From positions 391,961 through 455,960 of the forward strand of contig JBBHKE010001155.1 of assembly GCA_037447655.1 (NCBI GenBank): a stretch of 64,000 nucleotides of DNA, in the 5' to 3' direction. The notes under the pieces were generated by a model. That model was given only the letters and a program-made list of their open reading frames with translations, ran no database searches and was not told the origin of the DNA. Shown in pieces: positions 19,803 through 53,632 of this stretch. Numbering within the stretch: the first letter of the stretch is position 1; every line of letters starts with the position of its first letter. This DNA comes from Zygnema cylindricum (lineage: Eukaryota > Streptophyta > Zygnematophyceae > Zygnematales > Zygnemataceae). Made by a program: the position numbers and the translations under genes.

Positions 19803-20784
19803 GGTTATGGGCCCACCCTCTAGGGTTCCCACCTTCAATGGATCTGGGTTCATCTATTGGGAAGCCATGATCATGGGAGCTTTGTGTGAAAAACGATACT
19901 GGGGTATCGTTAGTGGGCAAGTGAAACGTCCACCTTCGGGAACTCCACCAGAATTTGGAGGAGTAAGGTTTCATGTAGCAACGGCTACCTCAGCGGAGGA
20001 GGCAGATGATGGGGACAGCACTGTGTCCGAAAAGGGGAAAGGGAAGGAGACATCCGCTACTCCTATTGCCACAGTACCAAGAGCGGCGACCATTAAGACC
20101 ACAGAGAACGATACTCAAATGTGGGAGGATGTAAACATGGCTGCCAAGAACTTCATTCTCATGCATCTCACTCAAGCTTTGGCCACTCCCCATCTTCACA
20201 TTTACAAGGTCGAGGAGTTGTGGGTGAGTTAAGAGGAGATTTATAGAGCTGGAACTATTCAAGAGCTCCAGTTGGCTGAGCAGAAGCTAGTGAGTTACAC
20301 TTACAAAGGAGGAAAGATGTTAGATTACTGTAATGATCTTTCTTGTTTGTATATGGAAATGGAAAGTGCCGGGTGGACAGGTACAATGAAAATGAAAGTT
20401 AACACTCTTATCGTGAAGTTACCAGATGAGTACGAGAACATAGTGTATCGAGTACAGGAAATGCCTGATAGTTCATGGAAATGGAACACAGTGGTCAGGA
20501 TGATACTTGTGCAGGAAAACACAATGGAGATTAGGAGAGGAGGAAAGAGCACTCAAGATCTAGCTGCAGGAGGGGACCGATGGGGGAAGGATACGAAGAA
20601 ACCGTACAAAGGGGAAAGAGATCATCCTGGAGGACCGAGGCCCCCAAAGGGTCTTTGTCATTTTTGCAAAAAGCCGGGACACTTCATCGTAGATTGTGTC
20701 AAGCTGTCAAAGCTGAGGCTCCAAGAGAACTGTGGAGGGGGTTCTTCGGAGGGAAGAAAAAGGCACTTGTGGATACAAAAGTGA
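19783..20784 (+). pseudogene. Copia family-2 gag
   Basis: The ATG at 19783 lies in the last 20 nt of the LTR, and the frame reads through the primer-binding site (MEDTELQ then VMGPPSRVP). The N-terminal part has the copia gag pattern FNGSGFIYWEAMIMGAL and WGIVSG. A TAA at 20230 interrupts it. It resumes with a UBN2-type segment (MKVNTLIVKLPDEYENI) and a nucleocapsid CCHC knuckle, CHFCKKPGHFIVDC, at about 20658-20699. A frameshift follows before the protease. Confidence 0.88.
19803..19815 (+). other. Primer-binding site matching the anticodon arm of initiator tRNA-Met
   Basis: GGTTATGGGCCCA immediately follows the LTR end. It is complementary to the anticodon stem-loop of initiator tRNA-Met (TGGGCCCATAACC), the half-tRNA primer used by Drosophila copia and yeast Ty5, rather than to a tRNA 3' CCA end. 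Confidence 0.8.
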
Positions 20785-20899
20785 CAGGAGAAACCGAGGA
20801 TGGGTCCTCTGAGTAGGATGGGGAGCTTCTTCTTGACGAGAGTCTGGAGGAGAAGGAGATCCCTCGGAGACAGAAGTGTGCCCTTGGAGCAATTCGGGA

Positions 20900-21953
20900 A
20901 GCTCCACAGAAAGGATGGATTATCGACTCAGGTGCATCCATGCATATGTGTCGTTATAAAGAACTTTTCACTAAGTTAAGGAAAATCCCTACTGTAGAGA
21001 TAGAGTATGGGGATGGGAGAGTAGTTACTACAAATCCAGTGGGATCAGTAGATTTGAAAGTCTTAGTGGAGGGTAAGACTTCTATACTTACATTTTTAGA
21101 TGTACTCTACATTCCTCAGCTGAGTAAAAATCTTGTCTCTACGTCTGTGTTAGATGACAAAGAGTTTGATACCTTCACTCGAAAAGGAGTCTTTACAGCT
21201 AAGTATTGGGATGAAGTTTACTTCACGGCAGATAAGGGTAGCCAAGGAATGTATAGGCTCAACCTGAGTAATGAAAAGAAGAATGCTTATTATGTTGGTG
21301 TTCCTAAGATGATGATTTAGCATAAGCGGTTGGGGCATGTACATTCTGATAGGTTGAGGGAATTAAAAAATCTTGGGGTAGTAGAAGGCATGCAAATTGG
21401 GGATAATGAAATGATAGATGATTGTAGTGGTTGTGCTCAAGGTAAGGCTCACAGACTTCCCTTTCCCAAAGCCGCCACATATAGAGGTGAGAAAGAGTTA
21501 GATTTGGTCCACACAGATATTTTGGGACCTGCAAAAGTACCTTCGGTTCAAGGAAAGAGGTTTATGATGACAATAACCGATGACTGGTCTAGGTACTCTA
21601 GAGTCTACTTTCTGAAAACAAAGTTCGAAGCATCAACTTACTTCAAATAATATAAAGCTTGGAGTGAGAAGTTGCATGAAACCCCCATTAAGAGGATAAG
21701 GAGTGATAATGGGGGAGAATATACCTCTAACCAGTTTGAGGAATATCTGAGAGATGAAAGAGTACAGCACCAGAAAATTGTACCATATAACCCGGAACAA
21801 AATGGGGTAACTGAGGGGTTGAATCGAACACTAGGAGATAGTGTATGCAGTATGTTGGCCGACAAGAAAATAGGAAAGAGATTTTGGGGAGAAGCAATAA
21901 ACTGTGCCAACTACATTAAGAATAGAGTCCTTACCTCAGCTGTAAGGGAGTGA
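20900..21953 (+). pseudogene. Copia family-2 protease and integrase core
   Basis: The aspartic protease signature WIIDSGASMHMC lies at about 20920. The GAG-pre-integrase zinc module follows: HKRLGHVHSDRL, then DDCSGCAQGKAHRLPFPK. The integrase core shows HTDILGPA (first Asp), RSDNGGEYTSNQF (second Asp) and an NPEQNGVTEGLNRT block holding the catalytic Glu. A TAG at 21318 (replacing a coding triplet) and a TAA at 21648 interrupt it, and the frame ends near 21953 with a shift into the next block. Confidence 0.9.
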
Positions 21954-23374
21954 CACCTTATGAGAGATGGGTTGGGAGGAATCCAAATATCTCACACCTT
22001 AAAGTATTCGGTAGCCAAGTTTACAGTCTTGACACGGATAGGAAAAACTGGAAACTAGATGCTAAGGGAAAACCTGGATCATTTGTGGGATATGATGAGG
22101 ATGTTAAGGGATATAGAATCTATGACTTAGCAAAGAAAAATATCATTCTGGTCAAACTCTTAGTTGTCATGGATGAAGGGAAATCATTTGACCCCTTCAA
22201 ATATACAAAGAAGATAAGAATCAGATTTGAGTCTGAAAGTGAGGAGAACTCGGTCGTTTCCGAAAAGGACATGAGTGAAACCGTGATTGCAAATTCAGGG
22301 GAGATCCAAGATGCAAGAGACTCACCGGAAACCTCACATTCTCCTATGGACTTCGAAGAAGTGGGACAAGAACCGGCTTCCAAGGACAGGGGAGTCGATG
22401 AGACAGTGAGAAGAAATCCAAGACTTCCATCTGTTCTAGCTTCGGAGTTTGAGGGAGGAAGGAGGAGCAGCAAAAGGATACAGGAAAAACAAGCCGCGCA
22501 TAAGGTAACTAAGCTATCTCACCCAGATGAGCCTCAATCTTACTCAGAGGCAGTGAATAGTCTAGAGAAAGAAAGATGGATTAGAGCCATAAATGATGAG
22601 ATGGCTTCAATCATGGAAGCAAATACCTAGGAACTAGCGGATTGACCTCCACACATAAAACCTATTGGGTGTAAATGGGTATTTAAACTAAAACTGAACC
22701 CAGATAATATCGTTGAGAGATATAAGGCTCGATAGGTAGCGAAAGGGTTCACCCAAAAGGAGGGGATTGACTATGAGGAGACCTTTGCTCCAGTTTTTCC
22801 GTTCCCCTCAGTAAGGATTTTCCTCAGTCTGGCAGCAGCGGAAGACATGGAAATCCATCAGATGGACATTAAGATAGCTTTTCTTAATGGTGAGTTAGAG
22901 GAAGAAATTTTCATGAGGCAATCCGAGGGGTTCATGGAAGAAGGAGAAGAGAGCAAAGTTTGCAGGCTCATAAAATCCTTATATGGACTGAAGCAGGCTC
23001 CCCGACAGTGGAATAAGAAACTTGATGAGTTTCTCACCAATCTGGGATATATCCGTATCAGCTCTTACCATTCTATCTATATGTTTGAAGATGAGAATGG
23101 TGTCATTTTTATTACAATTTATGTGGACAATTTGCTTGTGTTAAGCAAGTCTTTGGAGAAGATCAATAGGCTAAAGAAAGATCTTAGGGGCAGATTTGAT
23201 ATGAAGGATTTAGGGGAGGCAAAATATATTTTGGGGATCCAAATGGAGAGAGATAGGTGGAAGAAGATCATTAGACTTATTCAGAAAGAAGCAATAGGAA
23301 ATATGCTTGAGAAATTCCAGATGGAAAATGCTAACAGTTGTACCACTCCCATAGACTTGAAAAAAAGTAAGTGA
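21950..23374 (+). pseudogene. Copia family-2 integrase C-terminus and reverse transcriptase
   Basis: It starts TPYERWVGRNPNISHLKVFG, the conserved C-terminal integrase box, then a variable linker with a Ser/Glu-rich part and FEGGRRSSKR. RT begins near 22560. A TAG at 22628 and another in KARLVAKG (about 22733) break it. Later blocks are intact: QMDIKIAFLNGELEEEIF, SLYGLKQAPRQWN. The catalytic box reads YVDN instead of YVDD, so this copy could not be active. Confidence 0.9.
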
Positions 23375-23393
23375 TGGGAGTATAGAAGGAGGT

Positions 23394-24122
23394 GTGATGA
23401 TCTTAGACGATCAGATGAGTCCAGAGGAGAGAGAGTTTATGAAATCTATCCCTTATAGACAGGTCGTAGGAAGTTTAATCTATTTTATGAATTGTACCAA
23501 GTCGAACATAGCGGCAGCAGTTGGAGTACTCAGTAGGAGTCTTAATGATCCTAAGAATAGAGATTGGGAGGCAGTCAAGAGAGTCATGAGATATCTGGTG
23601 GGAACTAGAGAGTTATGGTTGCATTTGGGAGGGTAGCACACTGACATCACTACTTGGAGTGACGCTAGTTATGGGAACGCACCTATGAGACGATGCACTT
23701 CTGGGTATGTGTTGTATGTTGGGGAAGGTGCTTGCTGTTGGAGCAGTAAGCAACAAAAGGTGGTTGCTCAATCCACTATGGAGGCTGAGTACATGGCCTC
23801 TTGTTCTGCTAGGAAAGAATTTATGTGGGTCAAGTCCTTGCTGGAAGAATTAGGGTATATGAAGGAGGGAGTGCATGAAGTCTTTTGTGATAATCAAGCG
23901 GCCATAGCAATTACAGCCAATCCAAAACACCATTTTAAGGCTAAACAAATGGACATAAGATTAAGTTTTGTAAGAGAAAAAGTGGAGAATAAAATAGTGA
24001 ATCTTGTATATAGATCTGTTGAGGAAATGGTGGCTGACATGATGACCAAACCTGTGCCCTCTCCAAAGTTAAAATATCGTAGGGAAAAATGTGGATTAAA
24101 AGAAAAGCTAAAATTAGACTAG
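23394..24122 (+). pseudogene. Copia family-2 RNase H
   Basis: YRQVVGSLIYFMNCT, then an in-frame stop at 23634, then RRCTSGYVLY, VVAQSTMEAEYMASCSA, FCDNQAAIAI and VADMMTKPVPSPKL. The pol frame ends at 24122 just before the polypurine tract. Confidence 0.9.
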
Positions 24123-24135
24123 AAAATAAAGGGAG
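24123..24135 (+). other. Polypurine tract of family-2 copia
   Basis: AAAATAAAGGGAG directly abuts the TG of the 3' LTR, the usual plus-strand priming site. Confidence 0.75.
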
Positions 24136-25149
24136 TGTTGAAATAAGTAGTTTTTGTATTTTCTAGGTCTAAGTTAATTAGCGGAAAACATATAAAGAAA
24201 ATGTAGGCAGCCTGCCTCCATCTCTTCTCTCTTACCCCCATACTTGTTGTAGTCACTGAAGGAGAGAGAGAGCGATGGAGCCATGGTTGTCTCAGCTCCA
24301 TAGGAAGGACTAAAGGGTTGACTTTAAGTCACTCTCAACAAAAGGTTGAGTCCGGCAGGACTCGAGCCCCCGACCGGCAGAGCGCGGCGTAGCCGTTAGC
24401 TCTAACCAGTCTGTGGTAGAAGTCCGTTAGGAGATATAGGGTTTCATTGAAATTTAAATTATTGTGTAATGCAGAAATCATTTAACTGAAACTCTTTACG
24501 ACACGCATAGATACAGTTTTACGAAATGCGAAGTACCGTACTAAATTGAAACGGATGGTGCGCATTTTTTATTACGGCTCAGATTTCATTTCGCGTCAAA
24601 TCTAACGGCGCACATCATCGCCGAAATCCCAGAATGGTCACTTTGGCATTTAGTGACGTGGCATGACCTGGCGCCACGTAGAGAGATGACATTCGGTCGC
24701 GGGAATTTTGAGGAACGTACGGACGAGTGGAAAATAGACACGCGTCCGCCTAATGGCCTTGTCGTACAAAGGCCGTACAGAAAGTACATCGGCAGTAGTA
24801 CTTTCTGGTACTACACAGTGTTTTGATTGGTTCGTACAGGCAGTAGATAGGGGTTGTGAGAGAGAACTAGGAAAAACTAGGACTTAGGAAAATTTAGGTA
24901 GATAGTCCTCTCCCTCTTTGAGAGTTTGTATAAATTGGCATCTTTGCCACCCTATAACTTATCGGCTGGTTGGTCGTTTTCAGTGATTCTTTTTGCTACG
25001 CACTCAAGAGAGTCCAAGCTGCACAAGAGTGCAGTCAAATCGTCAATTTGCCTTTTTGGGCACTAGTGGTTGTGGCTTGAAGTGGGTTAGTTAAATACTA
25101 TCTAGAGGCTTTCTGAATTCTGTAGTCCAATGGAGGACACAGAACTGCA
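24136..25149 (+). repeat. 3' LTR of the family-2 copia element
   Basis: Begins TGTTGAAATAAGTAG and ends GAGGACACAGAACTGCA. It keeps ACGTGGC (24656-24662), TATAAA (24929-24934) and, on the minus strand, a tRNA-like block at about 24355-24410. Confidence 0.88.
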
Positions 25150-30903: not shown

Positions 30904-33460
30904 ATGCCCTCGGATTGGGATAACCTTCCTTTTGAATCCGGTTCCACCCGAGGTGGTACACTTTATCGTCCTCCGCAGTTAGATTCTTCGGATCTTCCGG
31001 AATAGTTGACCACATCCGATCTGGTTGCGGATCGCAGATCGCCGTCAACGCAGTCTGGTCTGACATCTACGTCATCATTGTCCTCAATTTCATCTAGGTC
31101 ATACTTACAGGGGACCGAAGAAGACTTTAAAGAGGAAACCTTTGTTGAAATAAGTAGTTTTTAGTATATTTTCTAGGTCTAAATTTATTTGAAAAGAAAA
31201 TGTAGGCAGCCTGCCTCTATCTCTTCTCTCTCTCTCGCCCCCATACTTGTTGTAGTCACTGAAGGAGAGAGAGAGAGAGCAATGGAGCCATGGCTGGCTC
31301 AACTCCATAGGAAGGACTAAAGAGTGGCTTAAGCCACTCTCAACAAAAGGTTGAGTCCGGCAGGACTCGAACCCCCGACAGGCAGAGTGCGGCGTAGCCG
31401 TTAGCTCTAACCAGTCTATCGTAGAAGTCCGATAAGAGATATAGGGTTTCATTACTATTTAAACTTTTGCAATGTACTAGATTCATTTAACTGAAACCCT
31501 TAACGCCACACATAGATACAGTTCTACAAAATACGAAGTACTATACTTGTTTGAAATGGATATCGCGCATTTTGTTTCGACAGTGAAACAAATATCGCGC
31601 AAGTATTTATTACGGCCAAGATTGAATTTCGCGTCAAATCTAACGGCGCACGTCATCGCCGAAATCCCGGAATGGTCATTTTGGCATTTAGTGATGTGGC
31701 ATGACCTGGCGCCACGTGGGAAGACATCATTCGGTCGCGGGAATTCCGAGGAGCGTACGGACGAGTGGAAAGTGGACACACGTCCACTTAATGGCCTTGT
31801 CGTACAGAGGCCGTACAGAAAGTACATCGGCAGTAGTACTTCCTAGTACTATACAGTTTTGTGATTGGTTCGTACAGGCAGTAGATAGGAGCTGTGAGAG
31901 GGAATTAGGAAAAACTAGGACTTAGGAAAATTTAGGTAGATAGTCCTCTCTCTCTGAGAGTTTGTATAAATTGGCATCTTTGCCACCCTATAACTTATCG
32001 GCTGGTTCGCCGTTTTCAGTGATTCTTTTTGCTATGGACTCAGGGGAGTCCAAGCTACATAGGAGTGCAGTCACATTGTCAGTTTGACTTTTTGGGCATA
32101 AGTGGTCGTGGCTGAAAGTGGGTTAGTTAAATACTATCTAGAGGCTTCTTGTATTCTGTAGTCCAATGGAGGACACAGAATTGCAACCTTTCCACCTTCT
32201 CACACTCAGAGGTTCCCTACCAGCCCAGCTTTGGCACAACCAGCGCATCCTCTATTTTACGACATGCCTTCCTTTTCAGAAGGATTAATGGGTAAGATAC
32301 AATTTTGCTTTTCCGAATTAAAGGACACCATGTCCTTATCAAATTTCCGGATGTTATACAACACGGAAATGAGGGACCTAGCCTTTAGATATCAAGATAG
32401 GTTTTACCTCCGTGTCGCCTTTTCCTTTCTCGATCGATACCTCCGTAGTATGGCCCTCACTCTTTACACTCACAAGTACGAGGATGTTACGTGGCCTCCT
32501 TTGCGGGGTTACCAAAAGTCCTAGGCGAGGTGGATATCCGATATCACGCTGCGAGACTGGTTGTATTAGATGTTAACGGGGACGAGTTGTATCCCAGCTA
32601 TCCCTCAGGTTCCTTGTTAGTATGCAGTGGCTGCTCGAGCGGCAGTCCCAGCAAGAGCGGGGGGAACCATTCCTTTACGTGACCCTCTCTCAGTCATGTT
32701 TGACATCCTTCAAAAGGAGTACAGGATGCAAAATCCGGATTAGATCAGAGAGTTGATGAACTTCAAGCGTAGGCCAGGTGAAACTGCTCTTGCCTTGCAA
32801 GCTCGGATGGAAACTCTGCGAGAGGCTTTAACGGACCTCATGTCCGATACGAAGGCTGTCTAGAAATTTGTGGGACATCCAAGTCCATCAAAGAGGTTTA
32901 TCCAAAACCACCTCAGCCAGATGTATGAACTGAAATTCACCTTTGAGCAAGCGGCTCAATATGCGGTAGAGTATGAGATGCAGACATCGTGGTGGGACGC
33001 CCATGAGCGGTTCAAACCTGCTCACAGGGAACCGGCCAATCCATCTCCTCCTCCACCAAAAATCCTATGGCCCCCTAATAAGCCTCAGAAGACGCTAGCC
33101 ATTGGAACTCCAACACCCGTTAGTCCCGGAAACCGAATGTGTTTTTGATTTGGAAAGACCGGGCACGATGCCTGCATGTGTCTTGATAAGGTGGCCACTT
33201 GCACTCATTGCCACCAAAAGGGACATTGTGTCCATCGGTGCCAAATCAAAGACCCTAATTTCACTTATCAAAATCAGATAAAGAACGGCGGAATTCTTGC
33301 CCGTTTCGCGAATCCAGACACTCCGCCTAAGGAGACCGAAAAGGAGGAAGCTCCTCCTAAGATCTTTCATAGAGAGAGAGGGAAGGCCGAGATTCAAGCT
33401 ACGATGGCGGCCATGATGAAAGAGCAATTTGCAACTTTCATGGCGGAAATGAAACCCTAA
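30904..33460 (+). pseudogene. Ty3/gypsy gag, split by a solo LTR
   Basis: The first part starts MPSDWDNLPFESGSTRGG at 30904 and runs, with one TAG, to 31142. After the solo LTR (31143-32185) the frame continues in register (PPSHTQRFPTSPALAQPA). A capsid-like middle follows with stops, including FEQAAQYAVEYE near 32940. The C-terminal zinc region lies around 33145-33245, with CTHCHQKGHCVHRC as a complete CX2CX4HX4C knuckle, and a partial knuckle before it (FGKTGHDACMC after a TGA). Confidence 0.8.
31143..32185 (+). mobile_element. Solo LTR of copia family 2, TSD ACCTT
   Basis: TGTTGAAATAAG...GACACAGAATTGCA, 1,043 bp, flanked by perfect ACCTT duplications (31138-31142 and 32186-32190). It interrupts the gypsy gag, and removing it with one TSD restores the frame. 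This copy fixes both ends of the family-2 LTR and shows that the gag ATG (32166) is inside it. Confidence 0.95.
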
Positions 33461-33711
33461 TTTACTGGGATGGCTAGGACCGTTGTGCACATGTCGTTGT
33501 TGGCTGGGCAAACCCTTCGGGATTCCACCGTCTAACAACGTGTGGCCATATTTGAAAAGGGCTCAGCAGAGCATAACCGAGTGGGCAAATTACAAAATTC
33601 TCGTGTCTCACTCTCATTTGCAAAAGAGCCTCTGCCTTCCCTATAGGACACCGCTCATACCATCGCGGCAGAGGCACTAACCATTTTAGATAGCACTATT
33701 CATGAGGCTCA

Positions 33712-34576
33712 TTGAGTGAAGGAGCGATTAAGTATTTTTTAGCGATGTTAGAGGATGTACCGAAAGCCTTTCCCCTCGTTGAGGAGGTCGCAGCGGGAGC
33801 CGCTTTGAGGGCTTTGCAATTAAGCCCCCGTCTTTCAGCCGTTCAACCCGTTACTACGGAAGAGCGTCGTAATCTCGTTCCCCTTATCAGTTTCTTTGAG
33901 AACTCTTGGGGATCATTCTCACTGAACGGTGTACACCCCACTCTTCCTCTCATAAACACCGGAGACAAACCCGTGATCCTCGGATCCGGTTTTGCGCTCA
34001 AGCTTGGTCTGACAACAGATAAGCTTCAAGCTACAGTCACCCAACTTCTTACTTCGACAGGGACAACGGAGCCGGTCCTATGAATCACAAAGGACCCGCT
34101 CATTTTTCGATTTCAAATAGGAACCGAAAATGAGTCCGTTGAAATTGTTATTCATGCATTAGTCACTAAATGCAATGATTACGAGTGTTGGGCCAAGATG
34201 TTATATTCCTAGTCGGTGGTGGTGTGGACATGCACGACTATATATTTTCTTATCGACTAACTGACTTTTCGAAGTGCAAAATCTGTCTTCCCCTTATTTC
34301 AGCCCGTCGACCTTTGCCCACTATGGCTCACTCGGCTACGGCTCTTCCGGCATTTTTGGGGAACCTAGTTGTGGAGGAAATTTTCCACTCTCTTTGGCTG
34401 AAGAGATCATACCGGATAGTTCTCCCTTACTCGAGCTCTTTGCCAAACCGGGTTTTCTTATCAATTCTCACAAATTTGACAATAATTATAAGTCCACATT
34501 ATCTATTCTATTAACAACTTTCCCTCCTATACCTAGAGTTGCAACAGATCCTTCAGGTTTCTTGCCTATCAGTTAG
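33712..34576 (+). pseudogene. Ty3/gypsy protease region
   Basis: LINTGDKPVILGSGFALKLGL at about 33950-34015 has the shape of a retroelement aspartic protease site, but the catalytic Asp is replaced (N-T-G instead of D-S/T-G). A frame change near 34180-34270 leads into the frame shared by the methyltransferase. The region between protease and methyltransferase is poorly conserved and holds stops. Confidence 0.55.
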
Positions 34577-34588
34577 AAGCCCGTACAA

Positions 34589-35578
34589 CTGAGTATTCAT
34601 ACGGACGGGGTCGTTATTTTCGATTTATTCGTCGAGATCGGAACTTCACTATTCTCATGTTTACGGAATGGTCTCCTCATCCGTCACTACTATGTAGTAG
34701 AAATTGATGCATTAGCTAGAAAAGCACAATTGCACCATTGTAATCTCTTGCGTTCACAATATCCAGAATTTTTTCCAAAGTCACTGTTTCTACATATGCA
34801 CACTGCTCTTCCCTAAGACATTTGCATCTTTAGTTGTCATCATCTATGGGATGTTGAACCGATAAACCTTGTTTTTGGAGGGTGGGAGTGTAAAGGCATG
34901 TCTCGGGCCGGCAAAGGTCTTGGTTTGGCGGATCCCCGTGCCAAATTGTTTTCTGAGCTTTTCAAGGTCCTTCATTTTCTTCAAACCATGGCCAAGCTTG
35001 TCGGATGCATTTTAGAGAACGTCGCCGCTTATAATGATCCTCGGCCTACAGTTCTGGCTCACTATAAGCGCTTAGAACACCTTATCGGACCCCCGCTAAT
35101 TATTGATGCCGCTCGGCATAGGTCCCTTGCACATCGGGTTTGCTCCAAATAAACGAACGTAATCGATGTTGGTAGTCTTCGTGAGGCTAATTTGTTTGTA
35201 AGACCTCCCACTACAGACATTACGACAGCTTTGCTTCCCTTTCACCATGTCGAGTCATGTGTCCAAACTGACTGCCCTCCGAATTACAACATTAATGTAC
35301 CTGGCCAACCACCTAAGGTCCTTCCTACTTTAGTGTCTTACCCTAATTCCCATGCATACTCTTATAACGGTCTAGGAATGCTCCGGAATAATGTCACTAG
35401 AGAGTTAGAGGAGCCTACCGCCACAGAACGGGAGCATCTCATGCATTTTATTCCAGGCACTACTGCGGCCCCCGGCCTTACGGATAGACATCGTTGCACT
35501 TTGTTGGGTAGGGTCATGGATCCTCTGTCTTTATCATTTGACTTAGGTCTCGGCTTTGGAGCTGGTCACTATGCATAG
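34589..35578 (+). pseudogene. Cytosine-5 DNA methyltransferase domain inside the Ty3/gypsy polyprotein
   Basis: One reading frame holds the ordered C5-methyltransferase motifs. Motif I is VIFDLFVEIGTSLF (34613-34654) for AdoMet binding. Motif II is YYVVEID (about 34688-34708). Motif IV is GGWECKG (34877-34897) with the catalytic Cys codon at 34889, followed by SRAGKGLGLADPR. Motif VI is LENV (ENV codons 35015-35023). A motif VIII-like DAARHRSLAHR follows. The tail shows GQPPKVLPTLVSYPNSHAY, EREHLMHFIPGTT and LLGRVMD, matching the target-recognition/motif IX-X end of retrotransposon-borne methyltransferases as I know them. Stops at 34814 (TAA), 35150 (TAA, at a normally Trp position) and 35576 (TAG) disable it. 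Motif IV has Glu and Lys where the family has Pro and Gln (PCQG). Length about 325 aa. It lies between protease and RT, in frame with RT. Confidence 0.85.
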
Positions 35579-35587
35579 AATCAACCC

Positions 35588-37353
35588 GTGCAACCAAGGG
35601 GGGTAGGGAATACGGCGGCTCCTTCACGTCATGTTTCCTCTCGCATCTCTCCTACTCTCATGGGAAATCCATTTCAATTTTTTCTCTTCCCTTCTCTCAC
35701 ACTTGCAATTAAGGATATCTATATCTATGATTTCCTCAACCCGAGTCAAATGTCTTGGGAAATCCCGGCCTATACAGCCGTTCAATCCACAATTTCATTG
35801 TTTTCCGGTTCGGCACCGCACTGGACAGCTGCATTTCCCACGCGTAGTTGGCACCACTGGGTGAACTGCCTGCAACAAATGCCGATAAAATACGAGTTAG
35901 GCCAATCCCTCATTGTTGATGAGCAAATCGCATTTGCTCAGGCCATGGAAGCTTTCACTATCAAGAGTCCTAAGACGCCCAAGTGGAAGTTCGGTTCCAG
36001 CCTCACGAAGGGGGAACATGCACTAATAAGTGACACTTTCACCTGTCATATAGATGCTTTTGCTTTCTCCATGAATGACCTTGGACGTCATTCTACTTAC
36101 AAAATGTCAATCGACCTTGAAGACGATCGACCCATCTTTAAGCCGAAACACCGTCTCTTTGAAATGGAATGGGAGATGATGGACAAAAGATGTGTGAAAT
36201 TGGAAGAAGCTGGTCTAATCTATCGGTCGGATTCCACCTTTGTTGCTCCCACAGTCATGCCTAGGAAAAAAGATTCCGACGGAAATTTTTATGAGCGAAG
36301 AATGTGTGGGGACTACCGAGAGCTCAATGCCTTGACCGTTCAAGACCGCCACCCCATGCCTCTAGCGGAGGAAATATTTGACCATGTAGGTGGTGCAAAG
36401 TTTTTTAGCATTCTTGACTTACGTCAAGGGTTTAACCAGATTGAAATTGAGGAAAGAGATAGGCATAAAACTGCATTTTGGGGTAGTGATGGTCGGTGGG
36501 AATAGGCAGTCATGCCTTTCGGTCTTAAGAACGCACCCGCCGTGTTTCAAAATGTCATGGATTCGGTGCTGGGTGGATGTAAATTTGCTTAGTGCTACAT
36601 CGATGACTTGATAATCACTTCCGCCACGGTTGAGGAGCACGCCCACCATATTGAGTGGGTTCTCACCGAGTAAAAGAAATTCGGGTTGAAGTGTCAACCA
36701 GCCAAGTGTAATTTCGGTGCGGAGGGAGTGCCCTATCTCGGCCATTTTATTATGGCTGAGGGCGTCACTCCCTTGGAAGCTAAGGTAGAGGTGATCACCA
36801 AACTGCTGGCCTTCACCAATCTCACTAGTCTGAGGGCTTTTCTCGGACTAGCCAATTATTACCATCGTTTTGTACTAAATTTTAGTACGATTGCTTCTCC
36901 CCTCAATGACCTTCTCAAAAAAAAAGTGCATTTTGTTTGAGGACCCACCCAAGTAAAAGCGTTTCAAAAACTGAAAACCGCCCTTTTCAATGTTCCCATT
37001 CTTCGACCTCCTAACCACAAGCTTCCCTTTTGCCTACAAACCGATTTCGGGAAGCTTGGAATTGTGGCCATTTTAACGCAAAGAGAGTTGAAAGGAGAGG
37101 AATACGTAGTGGCATACGCCAGCCAGAGCAATAACCGAGCTGAATCTAATTACAGCAGTTACGAGGATGAATGTCTCTTCGCGGTATGAGTATTGTTCAT
37201 TTTCGACATTATCTTTACGGTAAGCCTTTCACGCTCCAAACTAGCAATAAACCCCTTTATTGGTTGATGACCAACGATAAGCTTTCAAGGAAGCTTGCCC
37301 GATGGGCTTTAATTTAACAAGAGTACGACGTTGAGATCATCCATCGACCCGAT
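35588..37353 (+). pseudogene. Ty3/gypsy reverse transcriptase and RNase H
   Basis: RT blocks: MSIDLEDDRPIFKPKHRL, MCGDYRELNALTVQDRHPMP, FFSILDLRQGFNQIEI, AVMPFGLKNAPAVFQNVMD and the catalytic CYIDDLI (36593-36613; YIDD form). Then CNFGAEGVPYLGHFI and LRAFLGLANYYHRFV. A TAG at about 36503 stands where Trp is usual, and others follow near 36590 and 36672. RNase H: PFCLQTDFGKLGIVAILTQ, VAYASQSNNRAESNYSSYED, with a stop then frame damage to about 37350. Confidence 0.93.
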
Positions 37354-38077
37354 TTGTTAAACTTGAACGCCGACGGGATTTCTCGGAGTCCACTACCTTG
37401 GACAACTGATAACGTTGTCCAGCAAGATTACTACGAGGACGTGGTACGCGCCATGTCGGCTAGTTCATATATCACTTACTGGCTCTCTTCTCTTCCTCAC
37501 CCTCAACCAGCCACAGATCCGTGGCGCGACGGCCCATTAATCCTCTTCCTCTCCTCTCAAACCTTTCGGCCCGATACTAGCGCCGAGGAAGAAGACTGAG
37601 TAAAGAAACGAGTCAAAACTTATTTGTGGCTTGGTGGATCTTTAGTTCGATTGCTAGCGGACATCAGTCATCAGCATGTCCCCCGGCCAACCGAGCGCTT
37701 GTCCTTGATTGAGCAGATTTATACTGAGCTCAGTCACTACGGGACCAAGCGTACCTTGAGCCTTGTACAGGCATGCTATTGGTTGTCCGGAATGCAAGCG
37801 GATGTGGCGGCCATTCTACACAAATGCGCCACATGCGATCGATTAAGCACCTCTTTCTCTAATCGGGAGTTGTCCCTACAACCATTGCCCATCAGAGGAT
37901 TGTCTTATCGCTGGTCCGTAGATCTCGCCGGACCGTTTCCCTTATCTCGAAAGGGGAAACAATACATCATGATAATGATTGAAAATTTTAGCAAGTGGGT
38001 GGAGGTGGTCGCTCTTCCCCACAAGACCGCTAAATTGACCAACGCTGCTTTTAAAGAGCACCTTCTCATGCGTTATG
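37354..38077 (+). pseudogene. Ty3/gypsy integrase, N-terminal half
   Basis: It starts in LNLNADGISRSPLPW, the end of RNase H/connection (NADxLSR-type), and after a TGA continues with the integrase zinc module (HYGTKRTL, then HKCATCDRL) and the core start RWSVDLAGPFPLSRKGKQY (first catalytic Asp, about 37922). The frame is cut at LLMRY by the LTR insertion at 38078. Confidence 0.9.
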
Positions 38078-38817
38078 TGTTGTTTTTAGAAAGCTTTAGT
38101 CCTCTTTATGCCTCAACTGTGAGAGAGAGGTGTTCAGGACTTAAGCTATTTTTGGTTGAGTTCGGTTCAGTACTTACCGAAATTAGTGTGACAGTGAAGT
38201 TGGGAGTTCACGGTTCATTCACACTTGGGACACGTGTCGTCACTTGGGAGAATGCGTGAGTATGTCCTCCGTGGACTTACGGAAATTCGGCTGGACCACT
38301 GGACTTCGTAAAGTCAATTCTACGGTGCCAAATCCTCTAATCGGACCGCTGACAGCCGCCGCCAACAAATAGTGACGAGGCGTGACTAGATCATTATCAC
38401 TTTACGTTGTCTGAACTTCGGTGTAAATATTTGTGATAGAATGTTAGATGTACGGCTGGAATGCCTCCGTACAGCTTAGTGTAGTTTCGGTGTATAAAAG
38501 TAGGACTTAGTGAATTTGATTTTTAGGAACAAATGATATGAAAACTGTACACTCAGTTTTATGTAATTTCATTTCTACATATCTCACAGATTTGTGAGCG
38601 GAATTGATTGAAATTTTGTGTGTGTGTGTTCGTTTTTATGCTATCTACAGTGTGGCAAATTTTCAGGACGTTTAGAGCGTTTTTCTGAAAGTTATAGTCT
38701 GTCAAATTTGCTGTTCAGCCATCGGTATTTGTGGAAGCTTCCTCTCTTGATTTGTTCTACGATGACTACTGCTGCATCTTCTTCATCTTCAGTGCCAGCA
38801 GTTGTCTCAGAACAAAA
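38078..38817 (+). mobile_element. Solo LTR of copia family C, TSD TTATG
   Basis: 740 bp, flanked by TTATG on both sides (38073-38077 and 38818-38822). It starts TGTTGTTTTTAGAAAGC. Its end CTCAGAACAAAA aligns with the other family-C ends CTCAATATAATA and CTCAAATTAACA. It carries TATAAAA (38493-38499) and a gag-type ATG (38762) encoding MTTAASSSSS. It splits the gypsy integrase core, and excision restores MRYGALATDQ. Confidence 0.88.
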
Positions 38818-39353
38818 TTATGGAGCTCTTGCGACGGACCAATGTACGGAGTTCCGAGGGGAATTTTAAGAGATGTTAGGTGAAGCTTTAATTGATCATC
38901 GTCGAACGAGTTGTGATCACCCACAAGCCGATGGCTTGGCAGAACGAGTTGTCCAGAATTTCAAGCGGGCTCTCCGAAAGCATTATTTGGAGAAACACAT
39001 TGTTTGAATATTCAAAAAGTAGCTAGTTTACCTTTGCCTCTAAAGTCTGACACCATTTTTTTGAAGAACTAACTCGCCGTGCTTTGCTTTTTGCTCGTGA
39101 GATGCCCATGGCTTTTGATAATATACAGATTGCCCAACAACGAGATACTTTAAGGTTCGCCACCACGTGGAGTGGTAGTTACAAGCCACAACAAAAATCC
39201 TACCGGGTCAACGATTACGTGTACCTCCGACGCCAGTCGTTCAATACTTTGAACACAGATCTTTCACCACACATTCTTCGTGTGGTGGAAATGGATGCTA
39301 ACGGGATGTTAGGTTTACGGGGTGTGAATACAAGGATAATTCGAGAGCATTTA
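38818..39353 (+). pseudogene. Ty3/gypsy integrase, C-terminal half
   Basis: ALATDQCTEFRGEF carries the second catalytic Asp. After a TAA the block HPQADGLAERVVQNFKRAL carries the catalytic Glu (about 38944). Frame damage at about 39005-39080 follows. Then comes a long open frame from 39084 with a GPY/F-like region (YRVNDYVYLRRQS, HILRVVEMDANGMLGLRGVN) and REHLKNCAPCYLPDL. Confidence 0.85.
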
Positions 39354-39434
39354 AAGAATTGTGCACCTTGTTACTTACCGGATTTGTCACAGGATATGGA
39401 TCTGATGAGGATGCCAATCACAGAGGCTACGGAG

Positions 39435-39569
39435 TGTACCATATGCAGGCGATCAGACGGCGAGAATACCATGTGTTTGTGCGACCATTGCAACCACGGG
39501 TTCCACATGGAGTGTTTGGTTCCTCCATTGACAGCAGTGCCAACTGACCATTGGATATGCCATGGTTCT
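39435..39569 (+). other. PHD finger at the integrase C-terminus
   Basis: In frame with the integrase tail: CTIC, LCDHCNHGFHMEC and WICHGS give a C4-H-C3 arrangement with seven of eight metal ligands. The last Cys is a Ser here. The spacing CX2C-X11-CX2C-X4-H-X2-C and the conserved Trp before the last pair are typical of PHD fingers, which bind histone H3 tails. The open frame ends at 39632 in a G-run. Confidence 0.8.
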
Positions 39570-39605
39570 CGTGAGCTGCCGACGGTTTTGACCAGCTCTT
39601 GCAGG

Positions 39606-39625
39606 CTAAGAAGCGGGGGGGGGGA
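39606..39625 (+). other. Probable polypurine tract of the gypsy element
   Basis: TAAGAAGCGGGGGGGGGGAA directly follows the PHD finger and would prime plus-strand synthesis. The LTR that should follow is not recognisable. Confidence 0.4.
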
Positions 39626-39639
39626 ATTATAGAGGTCAC

Positions 39640-39824
39640 TTCACTCTAGGGGAGTATTCTTCTTTTTTTCTCCTTTGGTCATTTTCACCTTAATTCTTTA
39701 TCTTGATATATATACATTTTTCCCTTTCTCATTTTTTTTTCGTTTGTATATGTGGTTGTTTGCATGACTTTGTTGGTTGTGATGCATGTTCGCTCTTTCT
39801 AGTCTCTCATGCACGACAATTGGT
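39640..39824. other. Remnant of the gypsy 3' LTR or flank
   Basis: A short AT-rich, T-run-containing stretch between the gypsy end and an inverted copia fragment. No gene. Confidence 0.3.
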
Positions 39825-40703
39825 GCTTCAAACTTTGTTTTTAGAAAGTAGACTCTAGATTATCTGGACCAGTCATGAGTAATTAGCATCATGAACCTCT
39901 TACCTCCTACCGAAGGTACTGTAGCAGGTCCCCAAATATCTGTGTGGACCACTTTTAGTAATTCCTCACATTTATATGTGGCAGTTTTTGGAAATGGAAG
40001 TCGGTGAGCCTTACCTAGAGCACAACCACTACAATCATCCACCATTTCATTATCCCCAAACTGAATGCTTTCTACTACACCAAGTTTCTTCATTTCCTTC
40101 AGCTTATCAAAGTGCACATGCCCCAACCGCTTATAGCAAATCATCAAGTTTGGGACATCAATATAGTAAGCATTATTCTTTTTATTACTCAGGTTAAGCC
40201 TAAACATTCATTCGCTACCCTTATCTGCTGTGAAGTAGACTTCATCCCCATACTTAGCTGTATGGGGCTCCCTTTCTAGTGAAGGTATTAAACTTCTTAT
40301 CATCTAATACACAAGTAGAGACAAGACATTTGTTCAGCTAAGGGATATAAAGTACATCTGAGAAAGTGACTATGGAAGTCTTACCCTTTACTAAGAATTT
40401 TAGATCTACCGATCCAACTAGATCTGTAGTAAGTACTCTACCATCCCCGTACTCTATCTCTACAGTGGGGATCCTTTTTAACTTTGTAAATATTGCCTGT
40501 CACGACACATATGCATGGATGCACCTGAATGGATGATCCATCTTTCTTGTGGAGGTTACCGAATGGCTCCGAGAGCAGACTGCTGCTTTCGAGGAATCTC
40601 CTTCTCCTCCAAATTCTCGTCAAGAAAAAGCTATCTATCCTCCTCCTCAGAGGACTCATCCTCATTGGTCTCCCTTTTCACTTGTGTGACAACAAGTGCC
40701 TTC
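39825..40703 (-). pseudogene. Inverted copia fragment (gag end, protease, integrase start)
   Basis: Read on the minus strand: an acidic stretch before the protease, a decayed protease site (a HSGASMHMC-like block with the catalytic Asp lost), GAG-pre-integrase CYKRLGHVHFDKLKE, DDCSGCALGKAHRLPFPK, then HTDIWGPATVPSVGGKRFMM and KTKFEA. It is closely related to family 2. The next element's LTR starts exactly at its 5' side. Confidence 0.88.
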
Positions 40704-41750
40704 TGTAGAAATTAATTGTCCGTTTAAAGTATTTTCTAGGTCTAAATAGAAATATAGAAAAAAGCCGAGGCAGTCTACCTCTAACTTCTCTCTCCAACTC
40801 CCTCAAACTTGTCACCATTGAGAAATTGAGAGGAAGCTGAGCCATGCCACCTAGGCTATCCAGAGGTTTACGGGAAATATATATTAGTTAGGGGTTTATT
40901 CACTAAGGATATGTGTAGGCCACATGAATTGATCCTGGTACCTACCGGACCGCAAACTGTCGGTAGTCGTTAGCCTTAGCCGTTAAGTCTTTGGCTAGTG
41001 TTAAGTACAATATGGTTTAATATTTAATTAAACATTACAAAGAAGGATAATCCATTTAACTATAATTGTTTACGCGATACATAGATCCGGTAATGTAAAA
41101 GTACGGATTATGGTATGGATAAGAAACCAGTACCGCGCATTTATTTCTTAAGCCAAACGAATACCTTGCATGTATTTATTACGGCTACAAATAAATGTGA
41201 ATTTAATCGGACGGCCAGAATAAGCGCCGAGGTCGCGAAAGAAGATTTCAGCGGTTTTGGTCATCGCCACATCGGATGACACGTGGCGGAATGACATTGG
41301 ATCGAGGCATCTCCAAGGATTAAAGGAGCGAATCCGGATTTACCACGTGTCCACATTTAGGCCATGTCGTATAGAGTTCGTACAGAAAGTACACCGGCAA
41401 CTGTACTTTTTTGTATGGAAGCGTAATCTGATTGGCTCAGTACATCAGCAGATAGTCTGTGAGAGAGATAGGTTTTAGAAAAATTAGGAGATAGGATCCT
41501 CTCTCCTAGAGAGCTTCTGTACAAAAGGTCAACTTTGACCCTCCATAACTAACTACTCATGGGAGCAAATTCAGAGATTATTTTTGTTATCGACTCAAAG
41601 GAGTCTTGCCTTTACAAAGGTGAAGGTGTTTAGAGTAATTGTCTGCCAGGGTGGCAGTTGTTCTTGCTGAAACACAAAGGGGTCAGGGTTATCATAGAGG
41701 CTTCTTGGACGCTGTCCACTTTGAGGACTTATGGAGGTCTCAGAGTTTCA
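40704..41750 (+). repeat. 5' LTR of copia family-1 element 1b
   Basis: TGTAGAAATTAATTG...GGTCTCAGAGTTTCA. It contains an ABRE/G-box-type ACACGTGGC (41280-41287) in the U3 part. Confidence 0.85.
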
Positions 41751-42884
41751 AGTTATGGGCCCACCCTCTAGGGTACCCATTTTTAAAGGAACTGCCTTCA
41801 TATACTAGGAAAGTATGATGATAGGAGCTCCATGCGAAAAAAGGTTTTGGGGGATAGTGAGTGGACAAGTAGGACGTCCATCAAGTCTTGGAATTCCTCT
41901 AGGGTTTGAATGAAGCAGATTCACAAAGAAAGTAGATCCATCTTCAACGGAGGAGACAAAAGAAGGAGAGGTGGTGGACAAAGGAGCGGAGAAGGAAACG
42001 ACCACACCCATAGGAACTGATTCAGCATTCATGTCACATATTTCGAGGAACAAGGAGAACGATACTGAAATCTGGGAATTGAACAATATGGCAGCAAAGC
42101 ACTTCATCCTACTCCATCTCATGCAAGGACTAGCATGTCCTCATTTGCAGGTAGAAATGCCATCCGATCTTTGGATGGCTCTCATAGAGATGAACCGAAG
42201 TGGTACGATTTAGCAACAATAGTTGGCTAATCAGAAAGTTAAGGAGTATGTATACAAAGGGTGGAAGATAGTGGATTTTTGCAATGAGCTTGCTACACTC
42301 TTCATGGAGCTAGAGAGTGCGGGAAAAGATTTTAGTGAAAAAGAAAAGGTTAACTATTTACTGATGAAGTTACCTGATGAGTTTGAAAACATAGTCAACC
42401 GTGTGTAGGACTTGCCGGACTCAAGGTGGATATGGAACTCAATGGTAGGGATGATTCTCGTTCGGGAGAATACGATTGAGATTCGAAGGGGAGGAAAGAG
42501 TGGCCAAGCCTTGGCAACTGCAACCGATTAGAGGAAGAAGGATTCCCGGAAACTGGTCGGTAACTATGGGGGGAGGGAGCAAAAAAAATGAGAGCGACGA
42601 GTTCGAAACCAAGGGCTCCCAAAGGTTTATGTCATTTTTGTAAGAAACCTGGGCACTATATGGCAGAGCGCACTAAGCTAACGGAGCTTCGGTTAAAGGA
42701 GGGGCAAACCGGTGGTACCCTGAGAGGAAAGAAAAAGGCCCTTGTGACACACGTACATGAGGCGGAATCCGAGGACGAGGACGATGAGCTCTTTTTCGAT
42801 GAGGAGTTGGAGGGGAAAAACGAGGTCAAAATTCCAGGAAGGCAGAAATGTGCTTACGGTGGATTGAAAGGTGAAGCAGGCTAG
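41731..42884 (+). pseudogene. Copia family-1 gag
   Basis: The ATG lies 20 nt before the LTR end. MEVSEFQ then VMGPPSRVP reads through the primer-binding site, as in family 2. Stops follow at about 41808 and 41908. Later parts keep NNMAAKHFILLHLMQG and LLMKLPDEFENIVNRV. The nucleocapsid knuckle CHFCKKPGHYMAER has lost its last Cys. Confidence 0.85.
41751..41763 (+). other. Primer-binding site of copia family 1
   Basis: AGTTATGGGCCCA, one mismatch from the initiator tRNA-Met anticodon-arm site in family 2. Confidence 0.7.
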
Positions 42885-43514
42885 ATTGTAGATTCAAGTG
42901 CCTCCATGCACATGTGTAAGGATAGGCACCTGTTCACTAAGATAAGAAATATTCCTAGGAGCTGGTGGATTGTCCACCTAAATGAAAACCAATCGGTTAT
43001 AAGTGTGTTTTCAAATTTAAACTGAAACCCAGATAACACAATCGAGCGCTACAAGGCCCGATTAGTGGCAAACGGATTTACCTAAAAGGAGGGAATTGAC
43101 TATGAGGAAATTTTTGCCCCGGTCGTCAGATTTCCCTTCGTCCGCATACTTCTCAGTCTGGCAGCAGCGGAAGACATGGAGGTGCACCAGATAGACATCA
43201 TGAGAGCCTTTTTGCATGGAGAATTGGAAGAGGAGATCTTCATGCGACAATTCGAAGGATTTGTGGAGGAAGGAGAGGAGAGCAAGGTATGCCGACTGGT
43301 TAAATCTCTTTATGGTTTGAAACAGGCGCCTCGACAGTGGAATAAAACGCTTGATGAGTTTCTTATCGGTCTGGGATATATCCGGATCAGCTCAGATCAC
43401 TCAATCTATGTTTTTGAAGATTGGGAAGGTGTTATATTTATTGCAATTTATGTTGATGATTTGCTTGTTTTAAGTAAATCAATGGAAAAAGTTAATAAAC
43501 TAAAAATTGATCTC
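42885..43514 (+). pseudogene. Protease stub joined to reverse transcriptase (copy 1b)
   Basis: IVDSSASMHMC is a protease site in which the catalytic G is lost (D-S-S). At about 42957 the sequence jumps to the RT start (ERYKARLVANGFT after stops). RT blocks to YVDDLLVLSK are present. The frame is cut at 43515. Confidence 0.85.
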
Positions 43515-43768
43515 TGTTGTTTTTAGAAAGCTTTAGTCCTCTCTATGCCTCAGCTGTGAGGGAGAGAGAGCTGTTCAGGACTTAAGTTAATTTTGGTTGA
43601 GTTCAGTTCAGTACTTACCAAAACTAGTGTGACTGTGAAGTTGGGAGTTCACGGTTCATTCACACTTGGGACACGCATCGTCACTTGAGAGAAATGCGTG
43701 AGTATGTCCTCCGTGGACGTACGGAAATTCGTCAGGACCACGGGAATTTGTGAAGTCAATTTGAGAAG
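43515..43768 (+). repeat. 5' part of a family-C LTR inside copia copy 1b
   Basis: TGTTGTTTTTAGAAAGC onward matches 38078 onward for about 250 bp and then stops. About 190 bp of pol present in copy 1c (about 49350-49540) is missing here, so insertion was coupled to deletion or later recombination. Confidence 0.8.
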
Positions 43769-44506
43769 AGTGTGGTAGAAAGAGCCATAATCTTAGACGA
43801 GGAATTAGGTTCCGAAGAACAAAAGTTCATGCAGACTATTCCTTACAGGCAAGTAGTGGGAAGCCTAATCTATTTTATGAATTATACCCGTCCGGATTTG
43901 GCTACAGCTGTAGGAGTGCTGAGTAGAAGTCTAAATGCTCCCACTAAGAGAGATTGAGAGGCAGCTAAGAAAGTCCTTAGATATTTGATCGGAACTTGGA
44001 ATCTATGGTTGCATTTGGGTGGAGGAAATATTGACATCACTACTTCAAGTGATGCTAGTTATGGTGATGCTCCGATGAGGAGATGTACTTCTGGATGTGT
44101 ATTGTATGTTGGTGATGGAGCTTGTTGCTGGAGTAGCAAACAACAAAAGGTTATTGCTCAGTCCACCATGGAGGCTCACTATATGGCCTCTTGCTCTGCT
44201 GTAAAAGAATTGATGTGGGTCAAGTCTTTGCTTGGTGAGCTTGGTCACCGTAAGAGTGGTGTGCATTTTTTTTTTTGTGATAATCAAGCATCTATCGCTA
44301 TTGTTGCCGATCCTAAACATCATTTTAAAGCCAAACACATGGACATTAGACTCAGCTTTGTTAGAGAGAAGGTAGAAAACAAAGTAATCAGTTTAGAGTA
44401 CAGACCAGATAGCGAGATGGTAGCAGATATGATGACCAAACTTGTGCCTTCCCCTAAGCTAATTTTCTGCAAAGAGAAATGTGGTCTAAAATTAAAGAGT
44501 GACTAG
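43769..44506 (+). pseudogene. Copia family-1 RNase H (copy 1b)
   Basis: YRQVVGSLIYFMNYTRPD, RRCTSGCVLYV, VIAQSTMEAHYMASCSA, CDNQASIAIV and VADMMTKLVPSPKL. An in-frame TGA lies near 43956. The pol stop is followed by a purine-rich stretch and the 3' LTR. Confidence 0.9.
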
Positions 44507-44518
44507 AAATAATGGGAA

Positions 44519-45571
44519 TGTAGAAATTAATGGTTATTTTTGTATTTTCTAGGTCTAAAATAAAATGCAGAAAAGAAGCCGAGGCAGTCTGCCTCTAACT
44601 CGTCTTTTCAGCCCTTACACTTGTCGCAATCACTCAAGGTTGAAGAGGAAGCTAGAGCCATGGCTGCCTATGCTGCTTAGAGATAGAGAGACATGTGGTA
44701 GATTTTGGTAGATTTACCAAAATATACTTGACAAACCCAGGATTTTATCCTGGTACCTCCTGTCCGTCAAGTCCAGCCGTAGCCGGTAGCTATATCCTAT
44801 TAGTCTAGGATCGGTGCTGGTAAATATAGGGTTTGACAGTTATTTAAATTGTTATACGTACACAGGTTCGATTTACGGCGTAAACAGTTTTGTAGACATA
44901 GACACACTCTTGTAGAGTACAACGTACGGTACTCCACGAAATGAATATCGCCCATTTGTTTCGACCGCGAAACAAATACCACGCAATTAATTTCGACGGC
45001 TATAATTAATTGCCGATCTAGATCGAACGGCCGTGATAGATGCCGAGATCGCGGAATGGACGCATTGGCGGTTTTCAGTCATCGCCACGTCAAATGACAT
45101 GTGGCACAATGACATTGGCTTGCGGCATCTCCGGGAAATATGGGAACAAATCCGGATGTAGCAGGCGTCAACATTTTGGCAATGTTGTACAATGGTCGTA
45201 CAAAAAGTACAACAGCACCTGTGCTTTTCTGTACGACACAGTAGTCTGATTAGTTCGTACTCTAGTAGTATAGGGTTTAGAGAGGGATTTAGGACTTAGA
45301 AAATTTGGTAGGTAGACCCTTCTCTCCCAAAGAGCTCCTGTACTAAAGGTCAATTTTGACCCTTCATAACTTACTGCTTAGGGGAGAAAATTCAGAGATT
45401 CTTTTTGTTATAAACTCAGGGGAGTCTTTTCTTCACAAGGGTGAAGTTAGTAAGAGTTTTTAACTGTCAGGGTGGCAGTTATTCTTGTGGAAACTCAAAG
45501 GGGTCAGGGTTATCCTACGGGCTTCGAGTGAGCTGCCTACTCTGAGGGCCAATGGAGGTCTCAGAGTTTCA
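44519..45571 (+). repeat. 3' LTR of copia family-1 element 1b
   Basis: TGTAGAAATTAATGG...GGTCTCAGAGTTTCA. Followed after only a few bases by an inverted copy of the same LTR. Confidence 0.85.
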
Positions 45572-50280: not shown

Positions 50281-50292
50281 AAATAAGGGGAG

Positions 50293-51352: not shown

Positions 51353-51877
51353 GTGTGTGTCTGATTTGCTTGGGGCTTTATTGTGAAGTCTTTCTTTTTG
51401 TGGTCTCCGTGAGAGTTTCCTCTTTTGTAATCTGAATATTATGGCAACTGCTGGTGCTTCTTCTTCTTCCTCTAGGTCACCGGTTGACTCAATATAATAG
51501 GTCACGGGCCCACCCTCACTGATCGCGATGTTTAATGGACAAAATTATTTATATTGGATAGATTTGAAGAAGTCTTACCTTAAGCTAGTGAAATTGTATG
51601 ATTTGATTTCCGGAGTTCTTTTGGATACGGATCCGCATTTTGAAAAGAAAAATGAGGATGCATTGCATTTTTTAAATTACTCTTGTCCGAAGATTTAAAC
51701 ATGACATATATCAATATCTCTAAAGGATATGATATATGGAAGGCATTGCGGGAGTCTTATTTCCTAGCTAGTGAGCAGAATAAGGTTATAACTGCTGAGA
51801 AAATTTGGGATTATAAGTATTCCCGGGATGATATGAACTCCTATTATAATAGATTGAAGCTTATTGTAATGGATTAA
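51353..51877 (+). pseudogene. End of a family-C LTR, primer site and gag start (duplicate 1)
   Basis: The LTR end carries ATGGCAACTGCTGGTGC (51441), encoding MATAGASSSSS, and ends CTCAATATAATA at 51499. The primer site GGTCACGGGCCCA (51500-51512) differs from GGTTATGGGCCCA at two positions. The gag continues MFNGQNYLYWIDLKKSY, KLYDLISGVLL and NISKGYDIWKAL, with two stops at the LTR end and a frameshift near 51695. Confidence 0.8.
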
Positions 51878-52685: not shown

Positions 52686-52688
52686 TAA

Positions 52689-53617: not shown

Positions 53618-53632
53618 TAATGTTCTAAACAG

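Follow-up and report, generated by a model that had tools for sequence, protein, structure and literature searches.

The window, a 64,000-nucleotide stretch of the Zygnema cylindricum genome, contains a dead copy of what is best explained as a Ty3/gypsy family present in many copies and of the same kind as KnitGypsy-Dnmt3, in which a single Gag-Pol frame encodes gag, protease, a DNMT3-like methyltransferase, reverse transcriptase (RT), RNase H, integrase and a PHD finger, accompanied by split direct repeats. Together with the mechanism proposed below, we give this reading a probability of about 0.7. The domain order, the existence of open copies, recent movement and purifying selection on the methyltransferase are all apparent from the sequences compared.

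The window copy occupies positions 32185-39818 (blastn to sister copies) and, like all its parts, lies on the forward strand. It is truncated at its 5' end, beginning at the point (32185) where a copia LTR together with the first part of a copia gag comes to an end, and its nearest sister copies among 20 fetched stretches, L096 and L101, show 88-89% DNA identity over 32185-38077 (blastn). The gag region (32185-33460; tblastn of 33149-33457 to sister copies) holds a CCHC-like zinc knuckle at ~33149-33262, found by eye, which in one open sister copy reaches E=0.0086 in Pfam, under the cut-off. It is followed by a frameshifted, retropepsin-like protease (33850-34260), linked to ten sister copies by tblastn of 33850-34080. 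In the window copy this protease is recognised by its motif alone, Pfam giving no protease match at E<=1; its DTG is readable in three open sister copies, and the single open copy scanned for it gives a weak Pfam match under the cut-off (0.012). Behind the methyltransferase domain (34589-35578; Pfam, tblastn, alignments, Foldseek) come RT (36190-36937, limits approximate, with internal stops), which is identified by sister copies and by Pfam RVT_1 (E=4.8e-6 on piece 35579-36505, under the cut-off), and RNase H (36941-37310, end approximate; RT_RNaseH_2 E=5.5e-21 on piece 36941-37186). The integrase is in two parts: the H2C2 zinc finger and the initial portion of the core (37600-38077; Integrase_H2C2 1.6e-10, rve 1.7e-4, the latter under the cut-off) are separated by a 740-bp insert within the core (38078-38817; comparison with sister copies) from the remaining core and the C-terminal region (38818-39400; blastn and tblastn to sister copies). 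The Ty3/gypsy order of RT, RNase H and integrase with H2C2 and rve is present, and the Pol frame with this gypsy domain order includes the DNMT domain. A PHD finger had been said to accompany the decayed copy, and it is indeed found at the C-terminus of the polyprotein (39435-39563; Pfam PHD E=7.5e-10), the closest solved structures in PDB being PHD fingers of chromatin proteins, PHF12, lid and ORC1B among them. Finally, a B1 repeat of the split-repeat structure (39625-39818; 81% identical to the B repeats of L101 by blastn) is the sole repeat left in the window copy, which stops at the B1/A2 border. Given its in-frame stops, frameshifts, 740-bp insert and 5' truncation, the copy is dead and cannot make the enzyme, which corrects the earlier reading on this point.

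Ty1/copia elements of related families fill 17152-54683 of the window (for example ~18923-25149 and 40704-45571), and nine places carry LTR-like repeats of ~1 kb. Two ~1-kb repeats (31143-32185 and 40704-41750), considered as LTRs of the gypsy element, belong to these surrounding copia elements. The segment 38078-38319 within the gypsy integrase is 90% identical to 43515-43761 in a copia pol, and perhaps a small mobile element sits in both; an antisense copia pol piece (39820-40702, 81.6% identical to 20760-21636) lies between the gypsy copy and a sense copia LTR, a complex rearrangement. Elsewhere in the window, 50291-52688 and 53631-56020 form a 2.4-kb direct duplication (92% identical), and an LRR-repeat frame (5697-8822) and the protein-kinase frame that follows it (9207-10106) probably belong to a single receptor-like kinase gene containing an intron.

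The sequence-only reading had placed a C5-methyltransferase between protease and RT, in the RT frame, and a Pfam match, the distribution of stops and the sister copies all bear this out. The frame 34589-35575 is flanked by stops at 34574 and 35576 and interrupted by stops at 34814 and 35150. When searched against profiles, as had been proposed, its best piece (34817-35152) matches Pfam DNA_methylase above the cut-off (E=9.5e-5, 22.4 bits, cut-off 22), with no match for the pieces on either side, and the whole domain with stops read as X falls slightly under it (6.9e-4, 19.6 bits). Over the 974 codons of 34262-37187, the frame of methyltransferase and RT is broken by 8 internal stops and the other two frames by 42 and 71, which indicates that methyltransferase and RT were once in one frame, as part of Pol in a living element; RNase H lies in this common frame as well. 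The C5 motifs follow the order that had been read, with motif I ahead of IV, VI, VIII and X in the translated frame, and this unrearranged order excludes a DRM enzyme, in which the motifs are rearranged by circular permutation.

In local alignments the window domain scores 109-128 with five phage C5-methyltransferases (best of 1000 shuffles <=59), 70 with human DNMT3A (best of 1000 shuffles 57) and 31, which is chance level, with DNMT1. At 75 columns conserved among 34 viral C5-methyltransferases, taken in out of 68 viral proteins of suitable length, it keeps 36 residues and changes 39, whereas the shuffled sequence, held in the same alignment for every shuffle, keeps a mean of 4.3 and a maximum of 13. 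A chance reading of motifs is ruled out by these shuffles. With tblastn at a loose limit (E<=10) the domain matches 256 phage records, the best 20 of which are 18 annotated DNA/cytosine methyltransferases and 2 hypothetical proteins (best E 4e-7); plasmid matches are weak (best E ~1e-2 among the 20 matches listed). Searches of viral contigs with the methyltransferase, RT and PHD pieces, and of prokaryote genome contigs with the methyltransferase, yielded no confirmed relative. Matches of the whole domain to PDB sequences are weak (best 0.12, HaeIII methylase; DNMT3A 0.46). A structure predicted from the alignment with the 34 viral relatives is confident in its AdoMet-fold core but low in mean pLDDT (57.4), and the best 50 PDB matches listed by Foldseek for this model are all DNMT3 (E 9.1e-11 to 1.2e-8, query-normalised TM 0.51-0.59). 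The alignment scores and solved-structure matches rule out a DNMT1/CMT affinity.

A profile search of the 352.8-Mb genome that contains the window returned at least 123 C5-methyltransferase matches (E<=0.001, all above the cut-off), a lower bound in that 123 of 782 candidates were scored, with some host genes among the 123 and the window's own copy absent from them. One locus, L092 (G000:C514), is a DNMT1/CMT-type methyltransferase exon with a GGPPCQG motif, probably from a host gene. Twenty ten-kb stretches were fetched, 12 for long open frames and 8 mixed, all picked from methyltransferase matches, a choice that gives no share of relatives without methyltransferase. Copies with the same order of protease, methyltransferase and RT, which the earlier reading had proposed to seek, were sought in them with window pieces as tblastn queries: RT follows the methyltransferase in 17/20 and integrase is present in 17/20, and a protease precedes the methyltransferase in 10/20, comprising all ten stretches of one clade (A) and 0/10 of the other (B), where the window-derived query may miss a divergent protease. 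The PHD finger was detected in 10/20 stretches by tblastn and, more weakly, by Pfam in an eleventh (L098); L106 and L107 have the methyltransferase alone, and L110 has RNase H and integrase without RT. One stretch holds gag, protease, DNMT, RT, RNase H, integrase and PHD in a single open frame of 2395 aa. Seven of nine methyltransferase domains tested are without stops, and open copies align across the whole 329-residue window domain. Recent movement of the family is indicated by two copies that share 99.88% identity across 7415 bases. In three open proteins scanned with Pfam, the integrase core is present and no match to the phage-integrase (tyrosine recombinase) family appears up to E=0.05, which excludes membership of DIRS.

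The long-frame copy is bordered by split repeats. Repeat A (931 bp) precedes the leader (L114:1658-2588) and has a 100% identical second copy at L094:8125-9055, and this second A is flanked by repeat B (~243 bp; L094 7881-8122 and 9056-9298, 99.6% identical), giving the order A-ORF-B-A-B. The B pair occurs in 9/20 stretches. The first A, looked for upstream of two copies, was found for one, the other seeming to be 5'-truncated. No target-site duplication is evident at the one copy examined.

The two clades are far apart, clade B being ~31-50% identical to pieces of the window (clade A) domain by tblastn. In a 49-row C5-methyltransferase tree, built without K. nitens, plant and algal DNMT3, clades A and B form one group (100/100), with support of 100/99 for clade A and 95/71 for clade B. 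This group, DNMT3A and two viral rows meet in one unresolved fork (93/90) on very long branches. The order methyltransferase, RT, RNase H, integrase is common to both clades, and a PHD finger appears in 2/10 clade-B stretches, under the Pfam cut-off (E=2.4e-4 and 0.0044). The simplest reading is a single capture ahead of the A/B split. For one open copy per clade the nearest solved structure is DNMT3A (E=9.1e-11 and 2.9e-13), and open copies score 55-74 with DNMT1 and 151-192 with DNMT3A; with motifs I to X in order, the domain is nearer DNMT3 than DNMT1/CMT. We call the window's clade DNMT3-like because its motif IV departs from the Pro-Cys of the DNMT3 family.

Two other accounts of the domain's provenance have to be weighed. 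As the window holds one copy and the reading was made from decayed sequence, the methyltransferase could be imagined as a host gene fragment that landed by chance between protease and RT. However, this is refuted by the same order in sister copies of two clades, which equally dismisses a one-off insertion into the window copy, and the reading frame common with RT and purifying selection leave its probability negligible. It is improbable, albeit less drastically so, that the domain came from a bacterial virus or a bacterium rather than from a host DNMT3. The decayed window copy does score higher with all five phages (109-128) than with DNMT3A (70), and three open clade-A copies reach 178-197 with two of the five phage enzymes, above their 151-158 with DNMT3A, the other three lying below (122-143). 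However, open clade-B copies score 182 and 192 with DNMT3A, about level with the best phage (187 and 197), PDB and Foldseek rank DNMT3 first (both hold few phage enzymes), and the tree puts DNMT3A, the viral rows and the retroelement clade in that same fork. In addition, the accessible text of the 2018 paper (PMC5890265) classes the KnitGypsy domain as Dnmt3.

What sets the window's clade apart is motif IV, where Trp-Glu-Cys (34883-34891; translated frame and motif count) has Glu in place of Pro ahead of the catalytic Cys. In the GGWECKG read earlier from the decayed copy, the catalytic Cys stands, but decay as the sole cause of the Glu does not: Glu is kept in every clade-A sequence read, so GGWECKG is not merely decay. 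The residue before the catalytic Cys is Glu in 27/27 clade-A sequences, window included (17 GAG and 10 GAA codons), Pro in 14/14 of clade B and Pro in 34/34 viral relatives aligned. The counts for the two clades cover 41 sequences (20 + 20 loci and the window), selected rather than random and with near-copies among them, and the pattern used admits Glu or Pro only, matching all 41 intended sequences; L087, L092 and L093 were left out, a looser pattern giving nothing for L087 and L093. All 27 clade-A sequences retain the catalytic Cys, and the open copies displayed retain ENV/ENI and AHRVR. Between clade-A lineages, third-position differences rise to 0.57-0.61 and second-position differences are 0.06-0.09, with dN of 0.12-0.17 for the methyltransferase, whose silent sites are saturated, and 0.07-0.09 for RT. 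Saturated silent sites beside a conserved protein argue that the Glu-Cys enzyme has been kept by selection. In the two close pairs available, dN/dS is 0.17 and 0.14 for the methyltransferase and 0.06 and 0.10 for RT; on these two pairs only, the methyltransferase is under purifying selection, less tight than that on RT. The decayed window copy compared with L096 gives a methyltransferase dN/dS of 0.42. The methyltransferase comparison dropped L099, L101 and L102 (frameshift), L105 and L108 (stop) and L095 (near-duplicate of L094), and represents clade B by L097 and L098 only, of ten loci.

The clades differ in CpG content too. Across a common 2.4 kb, ten clade-A stretches have a CpG observed/expected of 0.85 and ten of clade B one of 0.63, with no overlap, copies inside each clade being related and not independent; for the decayed window copy the value is 0.78. 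Between the clades there is no significant difference in TpG or CpA, and GpC observed/expected also differs, though less (0.93 in clade A, 0.86 in clade B). The CpG contrast fits a lower methylation of clade A, but does not prove it.

How might such an element employ its methyltransferase? Perhaps the protease frees the methyltransferase inside the particle, where it would meet the new cDNA. In the Pro-Cys clade the enzyme may methylate that cDNA, much as proposed in 2018 for Symbiodinium DIRS, and the integrase-linked PHD finger could read a histone tail and steer insertion. In the window copy's own Glu-Cys clade the enzyme would be retained with its catalysis changed or lost, and methylation by this clade is in doubt. 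Judging from the sequences, we tentatively propose that in the Glu-Cys clade a selfish element, while multiplying beside its Pro-Cys sister clade, has kept under purifying selection a DNMT that is reprogrammed or silenced in its catalysis, and puts the protein to a use other than ordinary CG methylation, perhaps that of keeping its own DNA unmethylated.

Two further readings of the Glu-Cys enzyme can be envisaged. An RNA substrate has been proposed for another retrotransposon DNMT in the accessible text of PMC5890265, and the Glu-Cys enzyme could likewise be active with another specificity, for example for RNA, single-stranded cDNA or RNA:DNA hybrids. The remaining catalytic motifs kept in open copies and the selection would suit such an enzyme, which we nonetheless hold to be unlikely. 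A little less unlikely, though still doubtful, is that the Glu-Cys protein is a catalytically dead methyltransferase fold with a structural or DNA-binding role, kept to bind cDNA, oligomerise or fend other enzymes off the element. The invariant Glu with its two codons, the Pro kept in all viral relatives and the CpG values of ten clade-A stretches all above those of ten clade-B stretches point in this direction. However, the catalytic Cys is just as invariant, ENV/ENI and AHRVR persist in the open copies displayed, and the CpG contrast comes without significant TpG/CpA excess, with a difference in GpC and from copies that are not independent. A DNMT3L-like role would be an analogue of such a catalytically dead fold. 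For the family as a whole, our preferred reading is still a Ty3/gypsy element that carries its methyltransferase in Gag-Pol.

Why targets silenced by methylation should carry a methyltransferase is a question standing since 2018. Two old clades with open copies and differing active sites in one genome amount to a natural experiment that makes this question directly testable, and the PHD finger beside the integrase is a plausible chromatin-reading partner.

Among known systems, the charophyte Klebsormidium nitens, with a genome of ~104-117 Mb, harbours the element KnitGypsy-Dnmt3. The sequence-only reading was right to recall Ty3/gypsy elements with DNMTs from charophytes, but not in assigning those of Symbiodinium to copia, which are DIRS and LINE in the accessible text of PMC5890265; a 2025 paper, in its accessible part, terms them 'LTR Copia and DIRS' (PMC12344493) and mentions the published retrotransposon-DNMT cases again. 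As far as that text of the 2018 paper extends, KnitGypsy-Dnmt3 is, like the family here, a Ty3/gypsy element whose Pol frame includes an unrearranged Dnmt3-type domain, with repeats as in DIRS, and the domain is under purifying selection, with Ka/Ks<0.2 (de Mendoza et al. 2018, PMC5890265); our two pairs give 0.14 and 0.17. Unlike here, where at least 123 methyltransferase matches occur in 352.8 Mb, the K. nitens elements are fewer than those of Symbiodinium, and their key residues are said to be conserved, in contrast to our Glu-Cys clade (PMC5890265, same text). The word PHD is absent from the main text of that paper as accessible, and a C-terminal PHD finger is present here. In yeast, methylation by the KnitGypsy-Dnmt3 domain was not seen, a result from which its authors draw no conclusion since human DNMT3B failed there too (PMC5890265, accessible text). 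SymbioDIRS-Dnmt3 of Symbiodinium resembles our family in having a Dnmt3 domain in the RT frame and A-coding-B-A-B repeats and differs in having a tyrosine recombinase rather than a DDE integrase; its domains methylate CG in yeast, and methylation of cDNA was proposed (PMC5890265, accessible text). Gypsy elements of Ectocarpus likewise place a chromatin reader behind the integrase, but this reader is a chromodomain or Tudor domain, and no cytosine-5 DNMT is mentioned in the accessible part of the source (PMC12477816).

With DNMT3A and DNMT3B the domain shares motif order, the top solved-structure match, AHR in motif VIII and, in clade A, LLGR in motif X; it differs from them in the clade-A Glu for Pro in motif IV and in being embedded in a polyprotein. 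Animal DNMT3 carries ADD and PWWP (PMC12344493, accessible part), neither of which has a Pfam match in the three open proteins scanned. Among the matches listed in our literature search, outside which subscription journals mostly lie, and as far as their accessible text goes, no further primary account of a gypsy-DNMT element appears, and neither a PHD finger nor Glu-Cys is described in one. The combination of DIRS-like repeats with a gypsy Pol containing a DNMT3 domain is already published for K. nitens, and the window element is a relative of that kind; new are the many copies with recent movement, the C-terminal PHD finger (weak in clade B) and the two old clades.
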